In this document: one piece after another, positions 1,856 through 22,469 of the stretch
How the letters are laid out: every line of letters begins with the position of its first letter
How positions within the stretch are numbered: position 1 is the stretch's first letter
From: Rhizobium sp. FKL33
Lineage (GTDB): Bacteria; Pseudomonadota; Alphaproteobacteria; Rhizobiales; Rhizobiaceae
Length of the DNA stretch: 64,000 nucleotides
Direction: 5' to 3'
Assembly (NCBI RefSeq): GCF_005222915.1
Contig: NZ_STFX01000008.1
Location: 1-64,000, forward strand
The notes under the pieces: generated by a model
The model's database searches: none
Told to the model about the DNA's origin: nothing
Seen by the model: only the letters and a program-made list of their open reading frames with translations
Position numbers and translations under genes: made by a program

Positions 1856-2707
1856 TCAGGTCGATTCGCCGAGAAGCAGCTTCTTGCCGGCGCGCGAGAT
1901 CCACGAGCCGGTGTTTTCGCGCGGCTCGAGCCCCTGCGCCTTCAGAAGCGCGAAGCTGTCCTTGTACCAGTCGCTGTCCGGATAATTGTGGCCAAGCACG
2001 GCTGCGGCAGTCTGGGCTTCATCGGTCAGGCCGAGCGCGTAGTAGCACTCCACGAGGCGCGCCAGCGCTTCCTCGACCTGGTTGGTGTTGGAGAAGCTTT
2101 CGACCACATTGCGATAGCGCGACACGGCGGCGAGATATTCCTTCCGCTCCTGATAGTAGCGGCCGATCTGCATTTCCTTGCCGGCCAGGTTGTCGCGGGC
2201 CATGCGGATTTTCACCTGGGCGTCGTCGACATATTCCGAGGTCGGATAGTTATTGACGACCTTGAGCATCGCTTCGATGGTCTTGGCGGCGGCGCGCTGG
2301 TCCTGCGTCACCACCGGGATCTGCTTGGCGTAGGCGAGACCGACCATGTACTGCACGTAGGCGGCGTCCTTGGTCTGGGCATAGAGGTTCATGTAGCGCT
2401 CGCCAGACTGGATGGCGGCTTCGTTATCGCCTTGGCGATATTTCACGAAGGTGGACATCACCAGCGCCTTGCGCGCCCATTCCGAGAACGGATGCTGCTT
2501 GTCGATGGCGTCGAACTTGCGCTGCGCTTCGGTGAGCTTGCCGGCGTTGATATTGGCGAGGCCCTGATTGTAGAGCACGTCGGGGGGATCAGTCTGAACG
2601 CCCAGTTTGGTGATGTCGAGATCGGGATCGCTGGTGCAAGCCGACATCAACATGCCGGAGGCGCTGATCGCCAAGGTCACAAGCACAGCGCGCGTGGATA
2701 GTTTCAT
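1856..2707 (-). CDS. bamD: Outer membrane assembly lipoprotein BamD (ComL)
   Basis: BamD is the essential lipoprotein of the BAM complex that folds beta-barrel proteins into the outer membrane. The N-terminus [18 protein letters not shown] leads to a lipobox LMSAC, so Cys is the lipidated residue 24. TPR helices fill the rest (283 aa, normal length). The open frame extends further upstream. However, AGGAAG sits 7 nt before the ATG at 2707 (a second ATG directly precedes it), and the lipoprotein signal only makes sense from there. The gene follows lpxC and precedes recN on the same strand. Confidence 0.95.
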
Positions 2708-2896
2708 CATCTCACTTCCTGCAAATCCCCAGCGGGCCCGGCTAATCGAAAAGCCCATGCGCCTCGCCTCTCCGTTCGTGGCGTTACTAGCCATAAAATA
2801 ACAGCTATCGCAACGCCATGTTTACCCCATCGGGCAAATTTGTGGCGAAAACGGGTCGGTGCGCCGGGTGATCCGGCGCGCCCGCAAGATAGAGCC

Positions 2897-3862
2897 TCAG
2901 GCGGTCCAGTGAGCGTATTCCTGCCTGCTAACGGCGATCATCTCCGGCGCCGCAACGCGGGCGCGCTGGCCGGCGGATTCGACGATGTCATAGGCCGAGG
3001 CGTCCGACAGCAGCGCCTTCAGCGCCAAGGCGTTGACCTTGTGGCCGCCGCGATGGGAGCGATAGAGGCCGAGGAACGGCGCGCCGGCAAGCGCCAGGTC
3101 GCCCACGGCGTCCAACGTCTTGTGACGAACGAATTCGTCAGGATAACGCAGGCCTTCGACATTGATGACGCGATGATCGTCGCCGATCACCACGGAATTT
3201 TCGAGCGAGGAGCCGAGCGCGAGGCCGGCGGCCCAGAGCCGCTCCACATCGCGCATGAAGCCGAAGGTGCGGGCGCGCGACAATTCGCTCTTGAAGTTCG
3301 CAGCCGTCAGGTCGCCCTTCCAGCTCTGCCGGCCGATGGTCGGGCTGGGGAAATCGATTTCGACTTCGAAGCGGGTGCCGTCATAGGGGTGGAATTCGGC
3401 CCAGGACGAGCCGACATCGATTCGCACCTGCTTGAGCACGCGGATGTAACGGCGCTTCTTAGTCAGCGTCTTGATGCCCGCCTGTTCGATCGCGTCGATG
3501 AACATGGCCGAACTGCCGTCCATGACCGGCGCTTCCCCGGCGTCGATCTCAATGATGGCGTTGTCGATGCCGAGCGCATAAAGCGCGGCCATGACATGTT
3601 CGACGGTCGCGACAGAGCGCGCCGGATGCGTGCCGAGCACCGTGCACAGATCGGTGTTGCCGACGGTCGCCGACACGGCCTTGAGTTCGGTCACCTCGCC
3701 ATTCGGCCCAGTGCGCTGGAAGATGATGCCGGTTCCCGCGTCGGCGGGATTAAAGGTGGCGGTCACATCAGCGCCCGAATGAACGCCTATGCCGCGAATG
3801 GTGAAGGGATTTGCGAACGTCGTTTCAAATCCAGCCAGTCCTGATGCCATTTGGCCCCACAT
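2897..3862 (-). CDS. lpxC: UDP-3-O-acyl-N-acetylglucosamine deacetylase LpxC
   Basis: LpxC is the zinc deacetylase for the committed step of lipid A synthesis. Conserved blocks are visible: TVEHVMAALYALG with the first zinc His, HKTLDAVGDLALAG with the second His and Asp ligands, and HRGGHKVN near the C-terminus with the catalytic His. The frame is open to 3997. The family normally begins just before GFETTFANPFTIRGIGVHSG, and AGAAGG lies about 10 nt before the ATG at 3862 (321 aa); an ATG at 3850 is an alternative. The gene stands alone between terminator-bearing spacers downstream of ftsZ. Confidence 0.95.
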   Translation of the reverse strand: MWGQMASGLAGFETTFANPFTIRGIGVHSGADVTATFNPADAGTGIIFQRTGPNGEVTELKAVSATVGNTDLCTVLGTHPARSVATVEHVMAALYALGIDNAIIEIDAGEAPVMDGSSAMFIDAIEQAGIKTLTKKRRYIRVLKQVRIDVGSSWAEFHPYDGTRFEVEIDFPSPTIGRQSWKGDLTAANFKSELSRARTFGFMRDVERLWAAGLALGSSLENSVVIGDDHRVINVEGLRYPDEFVRHKTLDAVGDLALAGAPFLGLYRSHRGGHKVNALALKALLSDASAYDIVESAGQRARVAAPEMIAVSRQEYAHWTA

Positions 3863-7618: not shown

Positions 7619-8556
7619 ATCTGCTCCTCCGCCTTCTTGAGCGCCTTGGCGCGCAGCGCCACAGCCTTGGCCCGGCGCTCGGTCGCGCCCTCGCTCAGCT
7701 GGATGGTGGTGCGATCGGCCAACCGGAAATCGACCGCGACGATGTCGCGCTCAACGAGCTGGTGATCGCGGTTCAGTTCGGCAAGCTCCGCCATGGCGCG
7801 ATCCATGTCGCGCTCCGGCAGCTTGATCAGCACGCCATTGTCGAGCTGCACGTCCCAGCGGCGGCCGGCGACGCGGATATAAGCCTTTGCGCGCGCCTTG
7901 ATGTCGGGCCATTTGTCGAAATCGGCCATGATCTCGGCGGCGCCGGTTTCGGCGTCGCGGCCGACGAAGAGCGGCAGATGGGCGAATTTGTTGTCGCGCA
8001 GCGGCGCGATCACGCTGCCGTTCTTCTCGATCAGCGACAGGTCCTGGCCGTGCTGCCAGATGCCGAAGGCGTCGCGTTCGACGAGCTTCACCGCCACCGT
8101 GTCGGGATAGATCTTGCGGACTTCGGCGTCGCGCACCCAGGGCAGGCTTTTCAGCGCCTCACGCGTGCGCTGCGCGTCGAGCGACATCAGCGACGTGGCG
8201 CCGTCGAGACCGAGCTTCTCAAGAATGTCGATTTCCGAGGTGTGGAAATTGCCGGACACCTTGACGTTGTTGATCGCGAAACCGGCGACAGAGCTCACGG
8301 CCTGGGCGACATCCGGCGTCTCGCCGCTGAGCGTAAAGGCGTAGGTCGCCGTCAGGCCATAGAAGGCGACCAGCGAGACGCTGCCGAGATGACGCGGAAT
8401 ATTGACGCGGCCCGCAGCCAGGCTGCCCATGAAGCGCACCACGCGGCGCAGCGGCCGCGGCAGGATCATCTTCTCGCCGCCCTCGCCCGAGCCGTCGGCC
8501 CAGAGCTTGTCGTCGGCATAGTTTTTTCGAGAGCCGAGGAGTTTCAACGCTGGCAC
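7615..8556 (-). CDS. ftsQ: Cell division protein FtsQ
   Basis: FtsQ is a bitopic membrane protein linking early and late divisome proteins. After about 40 cytoplasmic residues comes one membrane segment ([17 protein letters not shown]), then the POTRA domain beginning [16 protein letters not shown] and the beta domain. I prefer a GTG start at 8556 (313 aa), because GGAGG lies 8 nt before it. An ATG at 8577 would add seven residues and has no clear ribosome binding site. Either start lies inside the 3' end of ddl, as in other rhizobial clusters. Confidence 0.93.
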
Positions 8557-9470
8557 GATGCGTCCTCCACCATCCATCGCAGGAATTCGCCAAAGGAGTG
8601 GCCGGCATGAGCGGCCATTTCGGGCACCAGCGACGTGGGAGTCATGCCTGGCTGGGTGTTGATTTCCAGCCAGATCAGTTCTCCGTCCTCTGAGAAACGA
8701 TCGTCGTAGCGGAAGTCGGAACGAGACACTCCGCGGCAGCCCATCGCCTTGTGCGCCTTGAGGGCCAGCATTTGAACAGTTTGGTAAATTTTCGGTGAAA
8801 TTTGCGCCGGAATCACGTGGACAGAGCCGCCGGCGGCGTATTTCGCATCATAATCATAAAAGGCGTGGCCCTGCGGCGCGATTTCGGTGACTCCGAGAGC
8901 GACATCGCCCATCACCCCGCAGGTCAGTTCGCGGCCGGCGACATAGCGCTCGACCATGACCGTATCGCCATAGCGCCAATCCGACGAGGTGATGACCTGC
9001 GGCGGATGGCTCTGATCTTCCTTGACGATGACCACGCCGAAGCTCGACCCCTCGCGCACCGGCTTGACCACATAGGGCGGCCGCATCGGATGGACGGCGG
9101 TGAAGTCGAAGCGGTTCATCACCTTCGATTCGGCGACGGGAATGCCATTGGCCTTGGCGATCTTCTTCGCCTGACCCTTGTCCATGGCGAGCGCCGAGGC
9201 GAGGACGCCGGAATGGGTGTAGGCAATTTCGAGATATTCGAGGATGCCCTGGATCGAGCCATCCTCGCCATAAGGACCATGCAGCGCATTGAAAGCCACG
9301 TCGGGCTTGAGCTCGACCAGCACCGAGGCGACGTCGCGGCCGACATCGACGCGGCTGACGCGGTAACCCTCCGCCTCCAGAGCGTCGGCGCAGGCGGATC
9401 CGGACGACAGGCTAACCGGTCGCTCGGAGGAAAATCCGCCCATCAACACCGCCACATGCTTTTCGCTCAT
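8544..9470 (-). CDS. ddl: D-alanine--D-alanine ligase
   Basis: This ATP-grasp ligase makes the D-Ala-D-Ala dipeptide for MurF. The 308-residue product starts [21 protein letters not shown], the usual Ddl glycine-rich N-terminus. LHGPYGEDG in the first third and the ATP-grasp end [11 protein letters not shown] are also present, the latter with the metal-binding Glu and Asn. The ATG at 9470 has GGGGA 7 nt upstream; the frame extends 7 codons further without an ATG. It is the first gene of ddl-ftsQ-ftsA-ftsZ and sits behind a CtrA-type box. Confidence 0.97.
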
Positions 9471-9584
9471 TCCCAATCCCCGAAAACTCAAACGCCGAAA
9501 CTAGAAATCCGCCCTTGCTTGAAGCTGACGCCAGCACGCCGCGCGCGGACAGGATTCGTTAGGATTGAGTAAAGACGATTAAGG

Positions 9585-9601
9585 TTAACGACCCGTTAAC
9601 C
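9585..9601 (-). promoter_or_regulatory. CtrA-type box upstream of ddl-ftsQAZ
   Basis: The sequence TTAA, seven bases (CGACCCG), TTAA, then CC matches the CtrA consensus TTAA-N7-TTAAC of alphaproteobacteria. It lies about 115 bp upstream of the ddl start. CtrA control of ftsQAZ is known in Caulobacter and several Rhizobiales; its use here is inferred. Confidence 0.6.
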
Positions 9602-9658
9602 AGTCTTAATGAGGAACAGCGAATTCGAAAAAATGCTGAGGATCGGCGGGGTTGTGGC

Positions 9659-9916
9659 TCAATGGCCACGGTCGTCGGATGCTCGGCCCGGCTCAGTATC
9701 AACGGAAGCCCGCCGCGCCTCGATCCGTACAGCAAGCGCTTCCATCAGAGACTGCGCGATAGCCTCGCGCAGACGAACGGTGCTGGAGGCCGTCCCCTTC
9801 TTGTCGAGCCATTGCGCGGCCCGTACAAGGCTGCCGCCCTCGCGCATGACGATGTCGTAAGCTCTCCGCAGCGCCCACGCCTCGCGCTGCTCCGTCATCG
9901 ACCAATCCGGGTCCAT
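9659..9916 (-). CDS. Small hypothetical protein
   Basis: This is an 85-residue cytoplasmic protein of unknown function. It looks alpha-helical (TEQREAWALRRAYDIV, RLREAIAQSLMEALAVRIEA), with no signal peptide and no membrane segment. GGCGGAG lies 2-8 nt before the ATG, supporting a real gene. I recognise no family. Nearby genes (yciI, tetR, ddl) give no functional clue. The CtrA-type box lies downstream of it, between this gene and ddl. Confidence 0.55.
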   Translation of the reverse strand: MDPDWSMTEQREAWALRRAYDIVMREGGSLVRAAQWLDKKGTASSTVRLREAIAQSLMEALAVRIEARRASVDTEPGRASDDRGH

Positions 9917-10032
9917 GCTCCGCCTGCCTGACCTGCGATTCGATAAGCTGATCGTAAGAAGCCGAACGTCTCCCCGCTACGGCGATACGGTGTCAGACGG
10001 ATCTTTTTTTTGCGGAATCCGAACAAAATGCG

Positions 10033-10323
10033 CTAAGCGGCGAGGAAAGCCAGTCTTTCGTCCAGCCGTTTCGGCGCAACTTCGTGAATGTCGGCGGCCA
10101 CAACACCTTCGGCCACGAAGGGATCTTCCGCCACAAAGGCCTCGATCGCAGCGCGATCGCCTCCCACCGCAATCACCGCGCCGCCGAGGCCGGGCTGCAG
10201 ACTGCCGGCCATCAGAAGCAAGCCTTGGTCGAAACCCCGCCGCAGCCAGTCATTATGACCGTCCATGAGGTCCTTTGCGCGGGCCCTGTTGTCGGTGAAC
10301 TTCAGCAAGATGATGAACATCAT
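10033..10323 (-). CDS. YciI family protein
   Basis: This 96-residue protein has the ferredoxin-like dimeric alpha/beta barrel of YciI proteins. MMFIILLKFTDNRA opens the first strand, the His of MDGHNDWL is the family's conserved His, and the mid-section LQPGLGGAVIAVGG and AEDPFVAEGV match the family pattern. YciI-like proteins are thought to be small hydrolases or ligand-binding enzymes; the substrate is unknown. It overlaps the tetR stop by 4 bp (ATGA), so it belongs to the tetR transcript. Confidence 0.85.
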   Translation of the reverse strand: MMFIILLKFTDNRARAKDLMDGHNDWLRRGFDQGLLLMAGSLQPGLGGAVIAVGGDRAAIEAFVAEDPFVAEGVVAADIHEVAPKRLDERLAFLAA

Positions 10324-10940
10324 AAACCCCTCTCCAGGTCTTTGATTGATTGGTCTTTTGTCAATGATGCCGCCGTGGCGGCGACGCCCGCAACCCAGCG
10401 CTTCATCGCCGCGATCTCACGGCTCAGAAAATCATCGTCGCGGAAGGCATTGTAGAGAGTGGCCGCGCCCTGGCTGCGGGCAAGCAACTCCATGGCGAGA
10501 CGATCCGCCTTCTCCTCGAGACCCATCTCGACGAATTGCCGGTTCAACCAGTTTCTGAACAGCGAGAACAACGCCACCGCCTCCTCCCGCGCCGGGTGGT
10601 CGAGCTTGGCGAGTTCGCTGGTCAAAGTGCCGATCGGGCAGCCATGCAAGCGGATCTTATCGCAGTTCATCGCGAGAATATCGATGAAGCGGCCGATACG
10701 CCCCGCAGGCGTCGTCTCCTCCCCCTCCCAGGCGTCCAGCATCGCCTGTCGGTCGACGGCGCGCTTTTGAATCACCTCGTTGAGAATCTCGTCTTTCACC
10801 TTGAAATGATGGTAAAAATTGCCGCGCGAGATGTTCACCTTCTCGGCGATGTCGGCAAATGAGGTCGGCTCATAGCCTCGCCGATAGAACAGCTCGTCGG
10901 CCGCCTTGACGATATCGCTCCGGGTCTGTCGTCCCGCCAT
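10320..10940 (-). CDS. TetR/AcrR family transcriptional regulator
   Basis: This 206-residue regulator has the N-terminal helix-turn-helix TSFADIAEKVNISRGNFYHHFKVKDEIL (residues about 27-54), typical of TetR repressors. The C-terminal ligand domain contains NCDKIRLHGCPIGTL, as in TetR_C_11-type members that respond to small hydrophobic or electrophilic ligands. I chose the ATG at 10940 because the HTH starts there in normal register (MAGRQTRSDIVKAADELF). It is transcribed away from adhP, and repeated half-sites lie directly upstream, so autorepression and control of yciI, possibly also adhP, are likely. Confidence 0.9.
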   Translation of the reverse strand: MAGRQTRSDIVKAADELFYRRGYEPTSFADIAEKVNISRGNFYHHFKVKDEILNEVIQKRAVDRQAMLDAWEGEETTPAGRIGRFIDILAMNCDKIRLHGCPIGTLTSELAKLDHPAREEAVALFSLFRNWLNRQFVEMGLEEKADRLAMELLARSQGAATLYNAFRDDDFLSREIAAMKRWVAGVAATAASLTKDQSIKDLERGL

Positions 10941-10970
10941 GATTGCCTCCTGCCGACGCCAATAGGACAA

Positions 10971-11005
10971 TTGCCCTAAAGGAAATTAGGGCAAACGCCC
11001 TAATT
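10971..11005. promoter_or_regulatory. Tandem inverted repeats, probable TetR operator
   Basis: Three copies of one half-site lie here. AATTAGGGC (10984-10992) and GCCCTAATT (10997-11005) form a perfect 9-4-9 palindrome. TTGCCCTAA (10971-10979) pairs with TTAGGGCAA (10986-10994) in a 9-6-9 palindrome. The block starts 31 bp upstream of the tetR start, in the divergent region with adhP. Confidence 0.75.
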
Positions 11006-11058
11006 CGTCAATCACCCGACGCATTCGCTTCGTGAATTTTTGACGACAGGCGCATCGT

Positions 11059-11099
11059 TTGACACTGATCAAGGTCCGCCCGCGCCGCCCGGCTAGATT
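11059..11099 (+). promoter_or_regulatory. FNR/FixK-type promoter of adhP
   Basis: TTGAC-ACTG-ATCAA (11059-11072) matches the FNR/FixK consensus TTGAT-N4-ATCAA with one mismatch. A possible -10 TAGATT lies at 11094-11099. With a start near 11106-11107, the box centres at about -41, the class II activator position. Low-oxygen activation of adhP is inferred. Confidence 0.6.
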
Positions 11100-11182
11100 G
11101 GCTTCGCAACCAGAGATCACTTCACCTTGAGGCTTGACCGCTTGCGGCGAGCCAACGGGATCCCTTTGACCAGGAGCCGGAC

Positions 11183-12208
11183 ATGTCCAATCTGATGCGA
11201 GCCGCCGTCGTGCGGGAGTTCAAGAAACCGCTGGTGATCGAAGAACTGCCGATCCCCGACCCTGACGACGACCAGATCCTGGTGCGTTTCCAGGCGACCG
11301 GCGTCTGCCACACCGACCTGCACGCCGCCCATGGCGACTGGCCGGTCAAGCCCTCGCCGCCCTTCATTCCAGGCCATGAAGGCGTCGGCTTTGTCGCCAA
11401 GGCGGGCAAGAATGTGAAGCGCGTCAAGGAAGGCGACCGCGTCGGCGTGCCCTGGCTGCACACGGCCTGCGGCTACTGCCCACATTGCCGCACCGGCTGG
11501 GAAACGCTGTGCGGCAGCCAGCAGAACACCGGCTATTCCGTCAACGGCTCCTTCGCCGAATATGGCCTCGCCGATCCCGATTTTGTCGGCCGCCTGCCCG
11601 ACGCGCTGGATTTCGGCCCCGCCGCCCCCGTGCTCTGCGCCGGCGTCACCGTCTATAAGGGCCTCAAGGAAACCGAAGCGCGGCCCGGCGAATGGGTGGT
11701 GATTTCGGGCGTCGGCGGCCTCGGCCATATGGCGGTGCAATACGCCAAGGCCATGGGCCTGCATGTCGTCGCCGTCGATGTGCATGAAGACAAGCTCACG
11801 CTCGCCCGCGATCTCGGCGCCGACCTCCTGGTTGACGCAAGACAGGAAGACGCCGTCGAGCAGGTGCAGAAGACGATCGGCGGCGCGCATGGCGCGCTGG
11901 TGACCGCTGTATCGCCCCAAGCCATGGAGCAGGCCTTCCACATGCTGCGTTCGCGCGGCACCATGTCGCTCGTCGGTCTGCCGCCGTCGAAGATCGCCCT
12001 TCCCGTGTTCGACACCGTGCTCAAACGCATCACCGTGCGCGGCTCGATCGTCGGCACCCGGCAGGATCTCGAAGAGTCCCTGCAATTCGCCGGCGAAGGC
12101 AAGGTAAAATCGCATTTTTCATGGGACAAGCTGGAAAACATCAATACAATTTTCGACCGGATGATCGAAGGTAAGATCGACGGACGTATCGTGCTCGATC
12201 TGAGCTGA
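11183..12208 (+). CDS. adhP: Zinc-dependent alcohol dehydrogenase, AdhP type
   Basis: This 341-residue MDR enzyme interconverts primary alcohols such as ethanol with aldehydes using NAD. Catalytic zinc ligands are Cys in GVCHTDLH, His in GHEGVG and a later Cys in APVLCAGVT. The structural zinc loop CGYCPHCRTGWETLC has four Cys. The Rossmann motif is SGVGGLGHMAVQ, followed by the NAD-selecting Asp in VVAVDVHEDK. AGGAG lies 6 nt before the ATG. The gene diverges from tetR-yciI and follows an FNR/FixK-type box, which suits an enzyme of oxygen-limited metabolism. Confidence 0.93.
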   Translation: MSNLMRAAVVREFKKPLVIEELPIPDPDDDQILVRFQATGVCHTDLHAAHGDWPVKPSPPFIPGHEGVGFVAKAGKNVKRVKEGDRVGVPWLHTACGYCPHCRTGWETLCGSQQNTGYSVNGSFAEYGLADPDFVGRLPDALDFGPAAPVLCAGVTVYKGLKETEARPGEWVVISGVGGLGHMAVQYAKAMGLHVVAVDVHEDKLTLARDLGADLLVDARQEDAVEQVQKTIGGAHGALVTAVSPQAMEQAFHMLRSRGTMSLVGLPPSKIALPVFDTVLKRITVRGSIVGTRQDLEESLQFAGEGKVKSHFSWDKLENINTIFDRMIEGKIDGRIVLDLS

Positions 12209-12370
12209 TCGAGGACAGCCACGCTGTGCGCACGAAGATTTTCGGGCGCACAGCGGACATGACAGTCCATAAAATATACTCTGCAGGTTTCCAAAATATA
12301 GCATCCGCCAAGCTTCTATTCATCTTTTCGATCCATGGTGGACCGAAAAGGGCTTTGTGACGGCGAGACG

Positions 12371-13543
12371 ATGTCGGGGATACAATTGCAGACTGGCGAC
12401 GGAGCGGGGACCGAGCGCCGAAGCGGCGACGCCAGCCCCGGAGAGCGGCTCGACGCCGCCCCTGACGACCAGGTCGTTGCGCGGTTGCTCGACATCGCCG
12501 AGAAAGCTCTCAAGACCAGACTTGATCCGCAACAAGATCTCCTGGACGTTGGTCTTGGCGTCAATCGAGCCCTCCGCATCATCCGCGAATTCTGGCGCGC
12601 CACCGGGATCGAGCTGGACGTCAACATCTTCTATCGCTGCCGCAACGTCGCAGAGATCGCCGACGCCATACGCACGGAGCGCGCCTATTCGGATGAAAAA
12701 CGCGTGCTTCTGCGTGAAGGAGACCATGAACGCCCGCTCTTTTGCTATGCGGGCGGGGCAAATTGCTTTCTCGAAATGCGAGAACTGATCAGCGCCCTCC
12801 CCTTTAACGGCGCCATCCACGGTCTTGCGGTCAAGGCGCATCCGTTTCAACCGCATGCTTTGCCGACGGTCGAAAGCGAAGTCCAGGACGCGCTCTGCGC
12901 CATTCGCCGCGTGCAGAAGCGGGGGCCCTATCGATTGATGGGATATTCCTTCGGCGGCGTCATCGCGCTCGAACTTGCCCGCGCGCTGGAGGCTGAGGGC
13001 GAGAAGATCGAGTTTCTTGCTATGTTGGACAGCCCCCTCAGCGATCATTGCATTTCAACTGCGCAATGGCTGAGGCTGATGGCCCGGGTGGTCTGCCGGC
13101 AAGCGCTGGCTTTTCTCGCCTTGCGCCGGAGGCTCGATCGCTACGCCGTCAACGGCAAGCCGGGCTGCGGCGCCGGATATCCGAAGCGGAAGGGACATCG
13201 GCTGCTCCTGCGCTTTCTCTCGCCAGAAAAAGCCGATTACCCCTTGTTCAATCCGCAATGGGTGCATGGCTTTCCGCCGGCTTACACGGGGATGGGAGAG
13301 CAGATCATGCGGATGAAGGGGCTCTATCAGCCGCGCCGATACGAGGGGAAGACCCATTTCGTCACCTCGTCCGCCGGCTCGCCGATCGATTGTCCATCCC
13401 GGGACGTCTGGGCTCCGCATCTCGCCAATGTGGAATGGATCGAGACAAACGGCACGCATCTCAGCATGCTGGTCGGCCGAAATGCAAAGGCGCTCGCCGC
13501 GACAATCGGCGAACGCCTTCAGAATTCGAGCAAATCAGGCTGA
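12371..13543 (+). CDS. Degenerate carrier domain fused to a type I thioesterase
   Basis: The protein (390 aa from this ATG; an ATG at 12335 would add 12) has two parts. Residues about 33-103 fold like a peptidyl/acyl carrier (RLDPQQDLLDVG, then a helix, then NVAEIADAI). The phosphopantetheine attachment site, normally LGGDSL, reads VGLGVN, so the modified Ser is missing. From about 120 on it is an alpha/beta-hydrolase thioesterase of the NRPS/PKS type, with the nucleophile motif GYSFGG (191-196), a likely acid LDSPLSD and a late catalytic His in NGTHLSML. No NRPS, PKS or transferase gene is nearby. The substrate is unknown. The stop lies 4 bp from the convergent DUF4189 gene. Confidence 0.75.
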   Translation: MSGIQLQTGDGAGTERRSGDASPGERLDAAPDDQVVARLLDIAEKALKTRLDPQQDLLDVGLGVNRALRIIREFWRATGIELDVNIFYRCRNVAEIADAIRTERAYSDEKRVLLREGDHERPLFCYAGGANCFLEMRELISALPFNGAIHGLAVKAHPFQPHALPTVESEVQDALCAIRRVQKRGPYRLMGYSFGGVIALELARALEAEGEKIEFLAMLDSPLSDHCISTAQWLRLMARVVCRQALAFLALRRRLDRYAVNGKPGCGAGYPKRKGHRLLLRFLSPEKADYPLFNPQWVHGFPPAYTGMGEQIMRMKGLYQPRRYEGKTHFVTSSAGSPIDCPSRDVWAPHLANVEWIETNGTHLSMLVGRNAKALAATIGERLQNSSKSG

Positions 13544-13547
13544 TCGA

Positions 13548-13784
13548 TCAGGTATCTTCATTGCATTCCGTGATTTCGCACACGGACTCGGTCGTTGTTT
13601 TATTGGCGCATTCGTTGAGCGCGCGCTCGGTCGCGTCGGCCTCGTTGTCGTAATTGTAGCTATAGCCATAGGACCCCTCTTCGGAGACGGCGATGCAGCC
13701 CCAGGCGCGAGCGGCGCTGGTCGTCGACAGGGTCGCAGCCGCCAAAGCCAATGCAATCAAACCGATCTTGTGAAGTTTCGCCAC
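13548..13784 (-). CDS. Small secreted DUF4189-like protein
   Basis: This 78-residue protein begins with GTG behind a strong AGGAGG. It has a Sec signal peptide (LIALALAAATLSTTSAARA) likely cut before WGCIAVSEEG. The mature part, about 50 residues, carries three Cys and the pattern WGxIAVS then NYDNEADATERALNEC of DUF4189, a family of small exported proteins without a known reaction. The Cys residues may form disulfides in the periplasm. It is convergent with the carrier-thioesterase gene and runs in the same direction as the glutaredoxin-MauE gene. Confidence 0.75.
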   Translation of the reverse strand: MAKLHKIGLIALALAAATLSTTSAARAWGCIAVSEEGSYGYSYNYDNEADATERALNECANKTTTESVCEITECNEDT

Positions 13785-13937
13785 GTGATTTCCTCCTGCG
13801 CATATCTGGTTCTGGGGAATTTCGTCTCACAAAACGCCGTCATGCGCCAGCGACAAGGCGCCGGGGACAGTCAGACCGCCCCCACTCATTTTGGGTGAAT
13901 TGCTCGCCGGGCTTGTCCGAGGATACTTTGCATCAGC

Positions 13938-14693
13938 TTACATAGGGCCATGACCGCCCAGCAGGCCGTAAAGCATCCACAACGCCATGGCGACCATCAT
14001 CACATTTTCCGTCAAGGATACGAAGCCGAGCGGCACGTTGAAAGAACCGCCGACGCAGGCGCATTTCAATTGGCGCTTGTCGACATACACCGCCTTGAAG
14101 ACGGAGACCGCGCCGATCGTTCCAATGAACAGGGCCACCGGAATGGACAACCAAGACAATGCGCCGGCCACCATCAAAACGCCCGCAAGCGCTTCCGCGA
14201 AAGGATAGATATAGCCATAGCCCACCCAGCGCCGCGCCAGCAGATCGTAGTTCAAGAACATCGTTGAGAAAGTCTCGATGTTTTGCAGTTTGAGGATCGC
14301 CAGGATACACATGCTGAACGCGATGAACCATTCGAAGGCCCGCATCGTCAGCGCATCGCCAAAGGCGGCATAGCTCGTCGCCACAGCCATGAGGGCCGCC
14401 ACGGAGAAGAGCGCAATCACCGGGCGATAAGTGGGTTTGGAGGGATCGGCGACGGCAAGTCCGAAATGACGGCGGAGATCATCATGGCCGCCAATACTCA
14501 CCCCGTCGATAAAGGTCTGCGGCGTCGTCTTGACCTGATGGTCAGTCTTGAAGCGATCGGTTTGCTCCCGGCTGGTCAGCCAGCGATCCTCGACCCTGTA
14601 ACCCCGCCGCTCGAGCAGATCCTTGGATTTGAGCCCATAGGGGCAGATATGCTTGTCCATCACCATGCGATAGAGCGTCGCTTCCTTGGTCAT
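13938..14693 (-). CDS. Glutaredoxin-MauE/DoxX fusion membrane protein
   Basis: Residues 1 to about 75 form a glutaredoxin domain with a monothiol-type active site CPYG (HICPYGLKSKDLL) and the cis-proline block TTPQTFIDG. After it come four or five membrane segments of the MauE/DoxX type with the signature KCACVGG and PLGFVSLTEN. MauE-like proteins handle disulfide or thiol chemistry in the membrane. The start at 14693 has AGAGGA 7 nt upstream. The gene is read from the mer-type promoter shared with the divergent MerR-like gene, so it is probably induced by a thiol-reactive metal or oxidant; mercury is the obvious candidate but is unproven. Confidence 0.85.
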   Translation of the reverse strand: MTKEATLYRMVMDKHICPYGLKSKDLLERRGYRVEDRWLTSREQTDRFKTDHQVKTTPQTFIDGVSIGGHDDLRRHFGLAVADPSKPTYRPVIALFSVAALMAVATSYAAFGDALTMRAFEWFIAFSMCILAILKLQNIETFSTMFLNYDLLARRWVGYGYIYPFAEALAGVLMVAGALSWLSIPVALFIGTIGAVSVFKAVYVDKRQLKCACVGGSFNVPLGFVSLTENVMMVAMALWMLYGLLGGHGPM

Positions 14694-14727
14694 GATTTTT
14701 CCTCTTGTTTTCGGAACCACGCCACCG

Positions 14728-14758
14728 ATATAGCCTCCGTACCATGATACGGAGTCAA
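14728..14758 (-). promoter_or_regulatory. MerR-type operator-promoter
   Basis: Perfect arms CTCCGTA (14735-14741) and TACGGAG (14748-14754) flank a 6-bp centre. Reading leftward, the -35 is TTGACT (14758-14753) and the -10 is CTATAT or TATATC, giving a 19- or 20-bp spacer. Both the over-long spacer and the dyad sequence match the classical mer operator, where MerR untwists the promoter. Confidence 0.85.
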
Positions 14759-14761
14759 GGG

Positions 14762-15166
14762 ATGCCATTGACGATTGCGAAACTCGCCGAAGCAGGCGGC
14801 GTCGGGGTTGAAACTATCCGCTTTTACCAACGCCGCGGCTTGATCGACGTTCCACCGCGCCCCGAAGGCTCGGGCCTCTCCGGCGGGGTGCGTCGCTACG
14901 GGGATGGAGATGTGCGGCGGCTGCGCTTCATCCGCTCAGCGCAGAAGGCCGGGTTCACCCTAGAGGAAATCGCCGAACTGCTCAGGCTCGACGCTGAAAA
15001 CGACCGTCGGCGGGCGCGGCAACTCGCCGACGCGAGAATTCTCGCGCTGGATCAGAAGATCGCCGAACTGCAAGCCGCAAAGACAGCACTCGGTCGTCTG
15101 GCGCAGGCCTGCGCCCATGGGCCGGACGGCCCATGTCCGATCCTCGACGCATTCACGACCGAATGA
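14762..15166 (+). CDS. MerR family regulator with two metal-site cysteines
   Basis: This 134-residue MerR-type activator has a winged HTH (LTIAKLAEAGGVGVETIRFYQRRGLI) that is nearly identical in pattern to mercuric MerR. A dimerisation helix and the C-terminal block ACAHGPDGPCPIL follow. Two Cys match MerR Cys117 and Cys126. The third ligand, Cys82 of Tn501 MerR, is absent: the segment reads LDAENDRRRARQL. Its ligand may therefore differ from Hg(II). AAGGG precedes the ATG at 14762; the open frame reaches 14705, but that would place the start inside the operator. It diverges from the glutaredoxin-MauE gene. Confidence 0.88.
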   Translation: MPLTIAKLAEAGGVGVETIRFYQRRGLIDVPPRPEGSGLSGGVRRYGDGDVRRLRFIRSAQKAGFTLEEIAELLRLDAENDRRRARQLADARILALDQKIAELQAAKTALGRLAQACAHGPDGPCPILDAFTTE

Positions 15167-15172
15167 CCGACA

Positions 15173-15973
15173 TCATGGGCGGCACGCATCGCCGAGACCC
15201 GGCCCGAGAATCAGATTCCGTCCGCGCTGTTTTGCAGCATAGAGCGCCATGTCGGCCTGCTTGAAGGCCGCCTCGAACTCCACCCCCAAGGCGGCATGCG
15301 CCATACCGCCCGAGAGAGTGACGAAAAAACTTTGTTCGCCGGTCGAGAACTCGCAACGGATTGTCTCGGCACGAACCCGCTCGGCGCGATGATAATCCTC
15401 CTCCAGCCGCGACGCCTGGCTGAGCACGCCGAATTCCTCGCCGCCCAACCGGCATACGACGTCTGTAGCCCGATGGAACACCCGGCAAATGACCCCAGCC
15501 ACCGTTTCGATCACCTCGTCGCCGGCCGCATGGCCGTGCCGGTCGTTGACCTGCTTGAAAAAGTCGATGTCGAAGACGATGAGGATCGAATCTTCCTTCC
15601 GCTTGGCGAAAGCGTCGAGAAAGGCGCGCCGATTGAGAAGCTTCGACAAAGGGTCGATCCGGCTCATCTCGTCCAGCGCTTTGTTGGTGACCCTCAGCCC
15701 GTGGATGCGGAGCCCGGCGCGATAATAGACGATGAACGCGCCGAACAGCGCCAGAAGCGGCGTCATCCACGATATGCAAAATAGAAAATGGGCCGGGTCA
15801 GGCGGCAGAAGATCGAACCGATAGACGATCAGACAGATGGAAACCTGCGCCAGCGTCAAGCTCAAGGAGAAACACAACGCCCCCCGAAAAGCGTTGCAGG
15901 CGACCCTGGAACGCGTCAGGGTGTCAGCGCCCGTAGCGGTCATGACCTTTAGCTTCGTCAAAAATCCGAACAT
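15173..15973 (-). CDS. Membrane-anchored diguanylate cyclase (GGDEF)
   Basis: The protein makes cyclic di-GMP from two GTP. Two N-terminal membrane segments (ALCFSLSLTLAQVSICLIVYRF and the stretch around ISWMTPLLALFGAFIVYY) lead into a GGDEF domain at residues about 95-260. The active site is GGEEF, an accepted active variant. RATD lies five residues before it, so the inhibitory I-site is intact. No sensory domain other than the membrane pair is visible. Its stop lies 7 bp from the convergent MerR-like stop. The ATG at 15973 has a weak ribosome binding site; an ATG at 15943 with AAAGG is an alternative. Confidence 0.9.
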   Translation of the reverse strand: MFGFLTKLKVMTATGADTLTRSRVACNAFRGALCFSLSLTLAQVSICLIVYRFDLLPPDPAHFLFCISWMTPLLALFGAFIVYYRAGLRIHGLRVTNKALDEMSRIDPLSKLLNRRAFLDAFAKRKEDSILIVFDIDFFKQVNDRHGHAAGDEVIETVAGVICRVFHRATDVVCRLGGEEFGVLSQASRLEEDYHRAERVRAETIRCEFSTGEQSFFVTLSGGMAHAALGVEFEAAFKQADMALYAAKQRGRNLILGPGLGDACRP

Positions 15974-16277
15974 GAAAACCTATAATTGTATAAACTACAA
16001 AAAACCAAATAATCGCCCCGACCGTCTTCGACTCAGGGTAGACGCTACGATACGTAGATAAATTCGATTTGTGGACATTCTTTCTGTTCAGCGTCTCAAA
16101 ATGTCGCTAGTAAAAATACCACAACACGCTCAGGTTTACGTCTTTTCGCAAAGACTGTCGGAGTCTATCCGCCTGTACAATCATAACATATCATCCGATG
16201 GCGGGGATCAATCATCTGCGCAGCAAAAAGGGCCGCGAACGGCCCTTTGACATGATCGACAATGACGGCGCAGCACA
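15974..16277. other. AT-rich spacer between murB and the GGDEF gene
   Basis: This spacer of about 300 bp is visibly AT-richer than its neighbours. It holds the murB terminator at its right end and presumably the GGDEF promoter. A short palindrome CTACG-ATA-CGTAG lies near 16041-16053. I see no gene. Confidence 0.45.
16227..16248 (-). terminator. Rho-independent terminator after murB
   Basis: Arms AAAGGGCCG and CGGCCCTTT with a 4-nt loop are followed, reading leftward, by TTTGCTG. It ends the mraZ-to-murB transcript. Confidence 0.88.
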
Positions 16278-17240
16278 TCAGGGCGCGAAAGCCGCCACTT
16301 CATAACCCTGCATGAAATCGCCGATGCGCTTGATTTCCCATTCCAACAGCACGCCGGAATTTTCGAAGACACGCTGGCGAACGATTTCGCCGAGCTTTTC
16401 GAGATCATGCGCCGTCGCCTGGCCGATATTGATCATGAAATTGCAGTGCAGCGGCGACATCTGCGCGCCGCCGATCTGCAATCCCCGGCAGCCTGCTTCA
16501 TCGATCAGCTTCCAGGCCGAATGGCCCTCGGGATTCTTGAAGGTCGAGCCGCCGGTCTTTTCCTGCACCGGCTGCACGGTCTCGCGATGATGGCGAACGG
16601 CGTCCATGTCGGCGCGGATCTTGGCCTTGTCCTCGGCGTAACCTTGGAAAACGCCATGGGTGAAGATCAGCCCTTCCGGCGGGGCGGAATGGCGATAGCT
16701 GTAATGCATGTCGGCGTTGGAGAGCGTCACGCGTTCGCCCTTGCGGGTCACCGCCTCGATCTCGACCACGCGCTCGCGGGTTTCCGAGCCATTGGCGCCC
16801 GCGTTCATGCGCAACGCGCCGCCGATCGAACCGGGAATGCCGTAATAGAAGGCGAAACCGCCGATGCCGTGATCGAGCGCCATGGCGGCGATGTTCTTGT
16901 CCGGGCAGATCGCGCCGGCGCGGATGCGGTTTTCGCCGGCCAGTTCGACATCGCCGAAGCCCTTGGCCGACAGACGCAGCACAACGCCCTTGATCCCGCC
17001 GTCTCGGACGAGAAGGTTGGAGCCGACGCCCACGACCGTCAGCGGCACCTCTTCCGGCAGCGCCTTCAGAAAGGTGACGAGATCGTCCACGTCATGCGGC
17101 TGGAACATCAGTTCCGCCAGACCGCCGGCGCGAAACCACGTCACCCGGTCCATCGGCGCGTCCGGGGTCAGCCTGCCCCTGACATCCTGCATCGCGCTGC
17201 CGAGTTCGGCCAGCAGCTTCTTGCCATCTACCTGCTTCAT
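16278..17240 (-). CDS. murB: UDP-N-acetylenolpyruvoylglucosamine reductase MurB
   Basis: MurB uses FAD and NADPH to reduce the enolpyruvyl ether to UDP-MurNAc. The 320-residue product has the FAD-binding block [15 protein letters not shown], then [18 protein letters not shown] and the C-terminal [13 protein letters not shown]. The catalytic Ser lies in [25 protein letters not shown] precedes the ATG at 17240, which overlaps the murC stop by 4 bp. It is the last gene of the mraZ-led operon; ddl, which usually follows, lies 7 kb further on. Confidence 0.97.
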
Positions 17241-18652
17241 GCCTTCTTTCCTGACAGGGACGCGAGTTCCTTGGGGAGAGCCGCGGCCCAATTTGTGATG
17301 TTGCCGGCTCCGAGCAGGACGACGAAATCGCCCGGCTCCGCCAGCGCGGCCACGAAGGGCGCGAGCGCATCCGGAGAAGACAGGAAGCGCGCGTCGCGGT
17401 GGCCGCCGGATTTGATGCGAGACACCAGCTCTTCAGCCGTGACTCCATCGATCGGATCTTCGCCCGCCGAATAAATCGGCGCAATGAAAATCGTGTCGGC
17501 ATCGTTGAAACAGGCGGCAAAATCCTCGAAAAGGCTGTGGACCCGGCTGTAGCGATGCGGCTGATGGATGGCGATGATGCGTCCCTTGCAGGTGTCGCGA
17601 GCGGCTTTCAGCACCGCCTTGATCTCGACAGGGTGATGACCATAGTCGTCGAACACCTGGATTCCGTTCCATTCGCCGGTATGGGTGAAGCGGCGCTTGA
17701 CGCCGCCGAAGCCCGCGAGACCCTTGGCGATGGCCTCTTCGCTGATCCCCAGCCGATGCGCGACCGCAATGGCCGCCGTGGCGTTGGAGACATTGTGCCG
17801 GCCCGGCATCGGCAGCCTCAGGCCGTTCATCTCGATGACCTTTCCCGTGCGGCGACGGCGGATGACCACGTCGAAGATCGAGATCGCGCCTTCGTAACGC
17901 AGATTGAGGAAGCGCACGTCGGCCTGCGGATTCTCGCCATAGGTGATGACCTTGCGGTCTTCGATCTTGGAGACCATGGTCTGCACTTCGGGATGGTCGA
18001 GGCACATGACGCCGAAGCCGTAGAACGGCACATTCTCCACGAACTGGCGGAAGGCGGCGCGGGCGTTGTCGAAGGTGCCGTAATGGTCGAGATGCTCAGG
18101 GTCGATATTGGTGACCACCGCGACGTCGGCAGGCAGCTTGAGGAAGGTGCCGTCGGATTCGTCGGCCTCCACCACCATCCACTCGCCCTCGCCCATGCGG
18201 GCGTTGGTGCCGTAAGCGTTGATGATGCCGCCGTTGATCACGGTCGGGTCGAGCCCGCCGGCTTCGAGCAGCGTGCCGACCATCGAGGTGGTCGTGGTCT
18301 TGCCATGCGTGCCGCCGATGGCGATGGCGTTGCGGAAGCGCATGAGCTCGGCGAGCATTTCGGCGCGACGCACGACCGGCAGCAGCTTCTCGCGCGCGGC
18401 GATCAGTTCCGGATTGTTCTTCTTGATCGCGGTCGACACGACCACGACTTCGGCCTCGCCGAGATTGTCGGCCTTGTGGCCCACGAAGACGTCGATGCCC
18501 TTGGCGCGCAGGCGCTGGACATTGGCGCTGTCGGCCTGGTCCGATCCCTGCACCTTATGACCGAGATTGTGCAGCACTTCGGCGATGCCGCTCATGCCGA
18601 TGCCGCCGATGCCGATGAAGTGGACGAGCCCGATGCTCTTGGGCATTTTCAT
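17237..18652 (-). CDS. murC: UDP-N-acetylmuramate--L-alanine ligase MurC
   Basis: MurC adds L-Ala to UDP-MurNAc with ATP. The 471-residue product starts [22 protein letters not shown], a Rossmann-like UDP-binding turn. The P-loop [12 protein letters not shown] is followed by the Mur ligase blocks [11 protein letters not shown] and [12 protein letters not shown]. The frame is open far upstream into murG on the same strand, but the real start at 18652 overlaps the murG stop by 4 bp (ATGA) and gives the standard length. Confidence 0.97.
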
Positions 18653-19773
18653 GCGTGAACCCCTTTGAATTCTGCAACCGTTTCGCCGCGGGCGATCGCT
18701 TCGACCAGATCGGCGAGCGTGTCGGCGGCTTGCGGCCTGCCCGTCTGGCGGGCGGCGCTCGCCATGGCGGCGAGCCGGTCCGGCTCGGCCATGGCGGCAG
18801 TGATGATAGTGGCGATGCGCTCCGGCGTCAGCTCGGCTTGCGCGATGACCTCGGCGCCGCCTTTGGCCTTCAGCGCCGCCGCATTGGCGGCCTGGTCGTG
18901 ATCGAGCGCATAGGGATAAGGCACGAGCACGGAGGGACGGCCGATGACCGCGAGTTCGGAGACGGTGGAGGCTCCGGACCTGCAGAAGACAAGATGCGCC
19001 TTGGCGAGTTTCTCCGGCATGTCGCCGAAGAAGGGCGCGACCTCGGCCGAAAGATTGAGCTTGGCGTAGGCGGCGGCGACCGTATCCTTGTCTTCGGGGC
19101 GTGCCTGCTGGACGATCCGAAGCCGCGCGCGCTGCGCCTGATCGATCAGGCAGATCGCCGCCGGGATGGCTTTTGAGAAGAACTGCGCGCCCTGGCTGCC
19201 GCCGAACACTAGGAGTTCGAACGGATCCTCGCCGTAAGAGGGCTGGTAGGGGTGGCCGGCGGCTGAGATGACGCCAGGACGAACCGGATTGCCCGTCACC
19301 AGCGTTTTCACGGCGAAGGCGCCGTTGTTCTCCGGCAGGAAGCCGCCGGCGATGGCGTCGACGCGCGGCGCGAGCTTCTTGTTGGCCCGGCCCATCACGG
19401 CGTTCTGCTCGTGGATGAGCGTCGGTATGCCGAGGCTCGAGGCCGCCATCAAAGGCGGCGCGGTGGGATAGCCGCCGAAACCGACGACGGCCAATGGTTT
19501 GATGCGCTGAAATAGCGCCTTCGCCTTGCGCATGCCGGTCCACAGCGTCCAGCCGGTCTTCAGGATCGCATAAGGCGTCTTGGAGGCGAAGGTGGCCGAG
19601 GGCACGACATGGATCTCGTCGGCTGGAAATTTGCCGGCGAAGCGCTCGGCGCGGCTGTCGGTGACCAGATGCACGGAATAGCCGCGCGCCCGGAGCGCAT
19701 GGCCCAAAGCTTCGGCCGGAAACAAATGGCCGCCGGTTCCCCCGGCAGCCAGAGCGATAATGCCCTTGCTCAT
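18649..19773 (-). CDS. murG: Lipid II synthase MurG
   Basis: MurG transfers GlcNAc from UDP-GlcNAc to lipid I at the inner face of the membrane. The 374-residue protein has the first G-loop [18 protein letters not shown], the block [16 protein letters not shown], and the UDP-GlcNAc site [14 protein letters not shown] with [24 protein letters not shown] near the C-terminus. It starts 4 bp after the ftsW stop and overlaps murC. Confidence 0.97.
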
Positions 19774-19777
19774 CTTT

Positions 19778-20932
19778 TTACTCCGCAGGCGCCAAAGTCG
19801 GTGCGCGGAACAGGCTGCGCTCCTGCGCGCGCTTTTCCGGCCGCTGACGCGTGAGTGCGAGAACGAAACCGGCGGTCACGCATATGGCAATCTGCGACGA
19901 ACCGCCATAGGAAATCAGCGGCAACGTCATGCCTTTGGCGGGCAGAAGCTGGAGATTGACGCCGATATTGATGATCGACTGGAAGCCGATCTGCAGCACG
20001 AGGCCGGCCACGGCGAAACGGGTGAAATCGTTGCGGTCGCCGCGCGCATGCGCGAGGCCGCGCATGACCACGAAGCCATAGAGCGCGACGAGCGCCATGC
20101 AGAAGACGACGCCGAATTCCTCCGCCGCCACCGAGAAGACGAAGTCGGTATGGCTGTCGGGCAGGATGCGCTTGACCACGCCCTCGCCCGGCCCCATGCC
20201 GAACCAGCCGCCGCGCACGATGGCGTCATGGGCGGTGTCGACCTGGAAGGTGTTGCCCTCTCCGGTGAGGAACTGGTTGATGCGCTGGGCGGCGTGCGGC
20301 AGCACGGTATAGGCGACGAACAGGCCGCCCGCTCCGCCGATCGCCATCAGGATGATCCAGAACCAAGGCATGCCGGCCATGAAAAACATCGAGCCCCAGA
20401 CCGCCGAGGTCAGGATCGTCTGACCGAGATCCGGCTCCGCCACCAGCAGCGCCGCCACGATCACGAACAACATCATCGCGAACAGATTGCCGGGAATGTC
20501 CGGCTGCTTCTGGTTTTCAGAAAACAACCAGGCGCAGACCACGACAAAGGCGGGCTTCATGAATTCCGAAGGCTGTATCGACAGGAAAGAGAGGGTGATC
20601 CAGCGTCTGGAACCCTTCACCTCCATGCCGATAAACAACACCAGCACCATCATCACCAGCGCCGTCAGCAGCATGATCATGGCGACGCGGCGCACCTGGC
20701 GAGGCGTTAGGAAAGATAGTCCGAACATGACAGCCAGCGACGGCAGCATGAACAGGCCGTGACGTTCGACGAAATGGAACTGGTCGAGCCCGATGCGCTC
20801 GGCGACCGCCGGAGACGCGGCGAAGGACAGCATGAAACCGATACCGAGCAGCAGCACGAACACTGCGAGGAACAGGCGGTCGATCGTCCAGAACCATTCG
20901 GCCAAAGGCCCGCGTTCAGCTCTGCTCACCAT
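19778..20932 (-). CDS. ftsW: Peptidoglycan polymerase FtsW (SEDS family)
   Basis: FtsW is the septal SEDS glycosyltransferase that works with FtsI. The 384-residue product from the ATG at 20932 has about ten membrane segments and the conserved AEPDLGQT block, with the catalytic-type Asp, and the late block [20 protein letters not shown] lies 8 nt before this ATG; the open frame extends 25 codons further, but without a good ribosome binding site. A CtrA-type box lies 57-71 bp upstream, so ftsW-murG-murC-murB may have its own promoter. Confidence 0.95.
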
Positions 20933-20988
20933 CAAATCACCTCTTCGCGCCGCAACGGATTTTTCCCGCGAGAATGCAGGCAAATTTC

Positions 20989-21003
20989 TTAATTTGTCAT
21001 TAA
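20989..21003 (-). promoter_or_regulatory. CtrA-type box upstream of ftsW
   Basis: TTAA, seven bases (TTTGTCA), TTAA, followed by CC, sits in the 136-bp murD-ftsW gap, one of the few real gaps in the operon. It fits the CtrA consensus as well as the ddl box does. Binding is inferred. Confidence 0.55.
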
Positions 21004-21068
21004 CCACGCCTGGTGGATCACCAAGGGATCGGAGCTTACGCCCCGAACCCTGTGACAGGCTGAAGGCT

Positions 21069-22469
<1,401 letters not shown>

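Follow-up and report, generated by a model that had tools for sequence, protein, structure and literature searches.

We conclude that a two-cysteine regulator of the MerR lineage in Rhizobium sp. FKL33 probably senses excess Cu(I) (possibly Ag(I) or Au(I)) and switches on grx-mauE, the gene of a glutaredoxin fused to a MauE membrane domain. The two genes are divergent in the 64,000-nucleotide stretch of DNA analyzed here (the window), with grx-mauE on the minus strand, merR on the plus strand and an operator between them (Table 1). Judged by its predicted metal site and its gene company, the regulator would be CueR-like, whereas its DNA-binding domain and operator appear nearest to those of MerR.

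Table 1. Features of the merR/grx-mauE region (window coordinates).
Feature	Position	Strand	Remarks
grx-mauE, 251 aa	13938..14693	-	N-terminal glutaredoxin (CPYG, C17) and MauE membrane domain (C211-A-C213)
-10 TATATC of the grx-mauE promoter	14727..14732	-	spacer 20 bp; 19 if the -10 is CTATAT
mer-type operator dyad CTCCGTAY-CATG-RTACGGAG	14735..14754	.	8-4-8
GGAG in the right operator arm	14751..14754	+	Shine-Dalgarno-like for merR; 7 nt 5' of ATG 14762
-35 TTGACT of the grx-mauE promoter	14753..14758	-	overlaps the dyad
MerR-family regulator, 134 aa, two Cys, R82	14762..15166	+	PF13411, PF09278
Codons D81-R82	15002..15007	+	Tn21 MerR has H81-C82
Codon C117	15110..15112	+	first remaining metal-ligand cysteine (predicted)
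Codon C125	15134..15136	+	second remaining metal-ligand cysteine (predicted), then Pro-Ile

The original prediction described a near-canonical mer operator with a TTGACT -35 element and a 19-20-bp spacer, and all of these were recovered. The dyad (14735-14754), whose minus-strand reading is CTCCGTATCATGGTACGGAG, carries an exact core. This core matches the proteobacterial MerR signal of Permina et al. 2006, TCCGTAC-(4)-GTACGGA, for which they give a spacer of 19 bp, and differs from their ACCTTCC type for CueR/HmrR (PMC1526738). TTGACT reads from 14758 to 14753, with a spacer of 20 (or 19) bp. The promoter (14727-14758) points at grx-mauE, and this orientation, together with the conservation described below, suggests that the gene is controlled by the regulator. 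In the other direction, GGAG within the operator may serve merR as a ribosome-binding site. Between 13500 and 15250, scanning for sigma-70 promoters gave none spaced at 16-18 bp and hence none to assign to merR, and an Rfam scan of 8000-22000 returned nothing at the gathering threshold.

A chance dyad was rejected on three counts. With up to two mismatches, the core TCCGTAY-N4-RTACGGA has a single site in the window, at zero mismatches, against 0.23 expected from shuffling; the 5.3-Mb genome of the strain holds two sites at up to one mismatch and the exact core nowhere but at 14735-14754; and only 10 of 980 shuffled intergenic stretches contained the operator at up to four mismatches. An operator shared with a mercury operon of the same genome was likewise rejected, as no MerA scored over the cut-off there.

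Named genomes were searched with Grx-MauE, and the best 80 loci listed were taken as the locus set. A related MerR (hereafter the clade) was adjacent and divergent in 49 of these best 80 loci, amounting to 48 distinct proteins. The original prediction that the DNA code is kept is borne out by these 49 MerR-bearing loci, every one of which combines the divergent layout with the operator at 0-4 mismatches (none in 7, one in 26, two in 10, three in 5 and four in 1; that is, 33/49 with zero or one). By eye, TTGA is present in all 49 promoters, nearer to the dyad by one base in two of them (L097 and L122). A scripted search recovered both hexamers in 46/49, with a spacer of 20 bp in 38, 22 bp in 6 and 19 bp in 2. 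The spacer is thus 19-20 bp in the window and mostly 20 bp in the clade, versus 19 bp in Tn21 and in the test for a mercury MerR operator.

The regulator has the features of the metal-sensing MerR superfamily: PF13411 and PF09278 score over their cut-offs, and a helix-turn-helix, a dimer helix and two metal cysteines are present, at least two of three metal cysteines being the criterion for the metal-sensing branch (PMC1526738). Its best NCBIfam match is TIGR02051 (MerR; 109.5 bits, under the cut-off of 150.85), and TIGR02044 (CueR) scores 81.5 bits, under the cut-off of 147.4. TIGR02051 calls for three mercury ligands, Cys82, Cys117 and Cys126, and the regulator has R82 and two cysteines. The two-Cys loop with a non-Cys third position that marks CueR is present, with Arg, not Ser, at that position.

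In MerR of Tn501, Hg is bound trigonally by Cys82', Cys117 and Cys126, charge balance has been proposed for His81' and His118, and Ser86' forms bonds with both Cys82' and Cys117; the C82Y change reportedly impairs dimerization and Hg binding, and H118A reportedly abolishes activation by Hg (PMC5027573). Arg/Asp-rich sequence had been predicted in the place of Cys82, leaving two ligand cysteines, and this is what we found: Arg82 of D81-R82 aligns with Cys82 of Tn21 MerR, and C117 and C125 are the sole cysteines of the protein. Alignment with characterized MerRs, proposed earlier as a check, also refined the claim, since the two cysteines are spaced by 8 as in CueR (112/120), versus 9 in Tn501 MerR (117/126). 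The stretch around Arg82 is two residues shorter than the CueR stretch around Ser77.

These features extend to the clade set of 50 proteins, formed by the window MerR and the 49 proteins from the best 80 loci. Position 82 is R in 48, H in 2 and Cys in none; C117, C125 and the C-P-I of the metal loop are present in 50/50, with a cysteine spacing of 8 in 48/50; residue 81 is Asp in 49 and Asn in the remaining one, no protein has His at position 118, and 41/50 have R at position 86. The differences at residues 81, 82 and 118, together with the CueR spacing, indicate that the part of the mercury site around Cys82 is absent and that the C-x7-C-P-I loop is CueR-like. Among MerR-family sensors, the residue that the other protomer supplies reportedly serves mainly to set the selectivity between +1 and +2 ions; it is Ser77' in CueR and Cys in CadR and ZntR (PMC9909328). 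By this rule, a non-Cys residue at position 82 would point to a monovalent ion; yet Arg is not Ser, and the sensors described in the relevant passages of PMC9909328 include none with Arg at the selectivity position. A monomer model of the regulator (pLDDT 88) favors none of three known structures, its Z scores being tied between CadR (6jni, 13.1), MerR (5crl, 12.8) and CueR (1q05, 12.1).

The original prediction also held that the DNA code had been kept and the sensor changed. Identity to Tn21 MerR is 45/71 in the DNA-binding part versus 16/58 in the sensor part, in line with this; the corresponding figures for E. coli CueR are 27/69 and 14/58. In an unrooted tree of 74 proteins and 138 columns, many of whose forks are unresolved (a long row, L211_0, and a duplicate, L217_1, were left out), all 29 rows of the clade group together with support 100/98. 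This group joins the Tn21-type mercury MerRs at 94/90, slightly under the 95/80 mark, and CueR is separate. Querying 299 genomes of the phylum with Tn21 MerR gave 15 matches at 1e-30. Fourteen have a match to merT, merP, merC or merA in the stretch that was fetched; all 14 show, by eye, a Cys in the Cys82 stretch, and 13 of them (all except L223) have the palindrome. The fifteenth is a member of the clade, with R82, and adjoins grx-mauE. The palindrome is therefore common to the mercury regulators and the clade, and the metal site is different. MerRs adjoining merA/merT in relatives of the order (L211-L216) branch separately from Tn21 MerR; among them the mer-type pattern matches only in L215, with four mismatches.

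Likeness to Tn21/Tn501 MerR thus lies in the operator palindrome, the divergent layout, the DNA-binding domain and the nearest tree group, and the difference in the absence of Cys82 (R/H in the clade), H81 and H118 and in the output. The putative output of the clade is a glutaredoxin-MauE protein, as the original prediction stated, and a search for merT/P/C/A/E within 8 kb found none in the 49 MerR-bearing loci or in the 31 others of the best 80, nor were mer genes seen in the stretch around the window pair. These data bear on whether the regulator still senses mercury, binding Hg(II) more weakly by two Cys or with help from R/H, and with thiol protection as an auxiliary output. Such a sensor would agree with the nearest tree group and with a palindrome identical in type. 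However, C82, H81 and H118 are missing in all 50 proteins and S86 is mostly replaced by R, changes at two of these positions in Tn501 MerR are reported to damage Hg binding or activation (PMC5027573), and MerA is over the cut-off in 0/8 genomes with a clade MerR versus 8/61 overall. Together with the lack of mer genes in the 49 loci, this makes a mercury sensor very unlikely.

With CueR/HmrR the clade shares the C-x7-C-P-I loop and the company of copper genes, and it differs by its operator and its separate tree branch. Copper markers (DUF305, DUF411, multicopper oxidase, copB, azurin and copper-binding genes, within a radius of 8 kb) were found in 17/49 MerR-bearing and 16/31 other loci of the best 80, compared with 0/38 random regions (Fisher tests, treating the loci as independent of kinship, 1.5e-5 and 1.6e-7). 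The 38 control regions of 16.7 kb came from 18 related genomes, different from those of the loci, after 2 of 40 had been dropped for overlap with others; the merA query matched one of the 38, and a CueR query matched one. The 17 copper-marked loci span eight labels of genus rank or higher. The remaining 32/49 have no copper marker in the stretch, 13 of the 49 stretches being shorter than 16 kb, and in the window itself no copper gene lies beside the pair.

DUF305 may be taken as a fair copper marker by analogy with CopM of Synechocystis, which binds Cu(I) and in whose paper the term occurs ten times (PMC4335983). The count covered 36 whole genomes: 35 belong to long MerR-bearing loci (there are 36 such loci, and L086 was left out), and one belongs to L134, a locus without MerR. 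The 72 matches in about 168 Mb lead to an expectation of about 0.26 in 36 stretches of 16.7 kb, versus 5 seen in the 36 long MerR-bearing loci of the best 80. In two genus-mates of the window strain (G005 and G008, 84% and 83% complete), a clade MerR and its operator face a DUF305 gene, and Grx-MauE was not found. In G004, an HMA copper chaperone lies close to the operator; it was considered as a target and not counted, as it has, by eye, a CueR-type box of its own. Among 13 plasmid regions, 12 of them annotated, copper genes lie near grx-mauE in 7 and in 5 there are none.

Two plasmid regions also hold RND and P-type ATPase metal-efflux genes of unstated specificity. These would suit a sensor of divalent metals (Zn, Cd or Pb) with Asp81 as third ligand, a residue found in 49 of the 50 proteins of the clade set; the 20-bp spacer, reported for ZntR by Permina et al. 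(PMC1526738), would suit it as well. The copper genes nearby, from a systematic count that covered copper and mer markers, and CueR at the same place in other genomes argue against a divalent sensor, which we regard as hardly probable. The sequence evidence favors copper or another monovalent coinage metal as the signal.

Loci of the best 80 without a clade MerR show that CueR can occupy the place next to grx-mauE. In 7 of these 31, all from Methylobacterium, grx-mauE is divergent from a CueR-like regulator that takes the position of the clade MerR and has a CueR-type box, TTGACCTTNCYA...TGGGAAGGT; the six regulators scanned all pass the TIGR02044 cut-off, and the seventh (L090) has the same sequence as one of these six. 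A similar box lies, by eye, directly upstream in L112 and L128. The CueR-like match in L135 is far from grx-mauE and was not counted as an exchange. Within the family of the window strain, CueR is divergent from grx-mauE in G018 (163.9 bits, cut-off 147.4). Seven relatives have Grx-MauE without a clade MerR, and a CueR-type box is found upstream in G018, G028, G030 (by eye) and G041 (by pattern), with none seen in G053, G021 and G043. On a Paracoccus plasmid a CueR box is followed by cueR and DUF411 and then by grx-mauE, and on a Sulfitobacter plasmid cueR and DUF305 precede grx-mauE. Regulator and operator thus appear to have been exchanged together, with the output kept.

The genome of the window strain also has a regular CueR (185.5 bits), and a second copper sensor therefore needs a reason. 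We tentatively propose, as a possibility on the unlikely side, that the D81-R82 branch is such a second sensor beside CueR, in which Arg82 (with R84/R86) would replace the selectivity residue, either recognizing a Cu(I)-glutathione adduct or offsetting thiolate charge, and couple the copper load directly to the membrane glutaredoxin.

The MauE domain of the output protein scores 44.1 (cut-off 27), PF00462 Glutaredoxin scores 20.3, slightly under 22.9, and TIGR02181/02190 match the glutaredoxin half. In a Foldseek search, its model matched glutaredoxins, none at an E of 0.001 or better, and the MauE half of the model (moderate confidence) showed no clear fold. Among the best 80 homologues, C17 and C213 are present in 80/80 and C211 in 79/80, a conservation that suggests that the thiols of both halves are probably working. 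A glutaredoxin domain with CPYG followed by MauE is also the composition of S. meliloti SmGrx3 (SMa0280), a protein with low deglutathionylation activity, a mutant without phenotype and a function described as unknown, whose gene is recorded as inducible by heat shock (PMC6315971); the SmGrx3 passages of that paper mention neither a regulator nor a link to copper. An S. meliloti plasmid carries a Grx-MauE 69% identical to that of the window, a clade MerR at 60% and an operator with three mismatches; this Grx-MauE may be SMa0280 itself.

The missing phenotype and the heat-shock induction count against copper. With the low deglutathionylation activity, the glutaredoxin nature of the output and the absence of the third Cys ligand in the clade, heat-shock induction would fit a thiol or redox sensor, in which a C117-C125 disulfide or glutathionylation turns on the glutaredoxin and the proximity of copper genes reflects thiol stress. 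Against this, the C-P-I of the metal loop is retained in all 50 proteins, grx-mauE elsewhere has the metal sensor CueR in the corresponding position, and in two genomes the operator faces DUF305 and no obvious thiol-repair gene. We consider a thiol sensor improbable.

Downstream of grx-mauE by about 150 bp lies the gene of a small protein (DUF4189; 13548-13784, minus strand) that contains several cysteines, which is possibly co-transcribed with it. In G002 (L049, near 5515), a similar sequence end lies where the DUF4189 gene stands in the window. Next to it, one plus-strand protein (12335-13543) combines a PP-binding carrier domain with a thioesterase domain.

Under the preferred reading, in which copper or a similar monovalent ion is the signal, a MerR dimer would sit on the mer-type operator within the over-long 20-bp spacer, and the apo form would keep the grx-mauE promoter silent. 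A monovalent ion bound between C117 and C125 would then twist the DNA and allow RNA polymerase to read grx-mauE, DNA distortion being the mechanism given for the MerR family (PMC1526738, PMC9909328). The product, which has one active-site cysteine (CPYG) and, in its MauE domain, the conserved C-A-C, is presumably membrane-anchored and may act under copper stress in thiol protection or repair, or in the handling of Cu-glutathione.

Across 61 genomes (the window strain and 60 relatives), MerR at 60% identity or more is found in 8, and Grx-MauE matches over most of its length in 13, one of them with an internal stop; the glutaredoxin part alone is matched in three further genomes. The two are adjacent in 5 of the 8 MerR-bearing genomes (G000, G002, G007, G011 and G040). 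In G004 (L050, L051), a MerR with operator lies about 86 kb from grx-mauE, where a search found no mer-type operator. Hosts of the module include Rhizobiaceae, Methylobacterium, Sphingomonadales, Caulobacter and Lysobacteraceae, and the pair is also borne by plasmids, for example one of Legionella lytica.

Several loci depart from this layout. Operator and clade MerR are retained in L237 (G360, 1888-3372), where the visible grx-mauE is a C-terminal remnant, followed by a Met/His-rich, copper-protein-like secreted ORF. A plasmid of Sphingomonas sp. FARSPH (L069, 6192-10040) has two grx-mauE stretches, each with a mer-type operator, and one MerR. grx-mauE is fragmented or has an internal stop in L061 (G043) and in L047 and L048 (G040). 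In Luteimonas deserti (L134, upstream of 8001), a mer-type promoter, degenerate by eye, precedes grx-mauE with no clade MerR adjacent. Within the openly licensed PMC full text, to which the literature search extended (subscription literature being outside its scope), we found no paper linking MerR, Grx-MauE and copper.

The module resembles a metal sensor re-targeted in nature, in which the DNA address is the same and the metal site and the output are different. The clade offers a natural set of sequences for the question of how the other-protomer residue sets +1/+2 selectivity, and it warns that a mer-type operator with a MerR-like regulator need not mean mercury. For the SmGrx3-type proteins, whose function has been described as unknown, copper tolerance would be a testable role.
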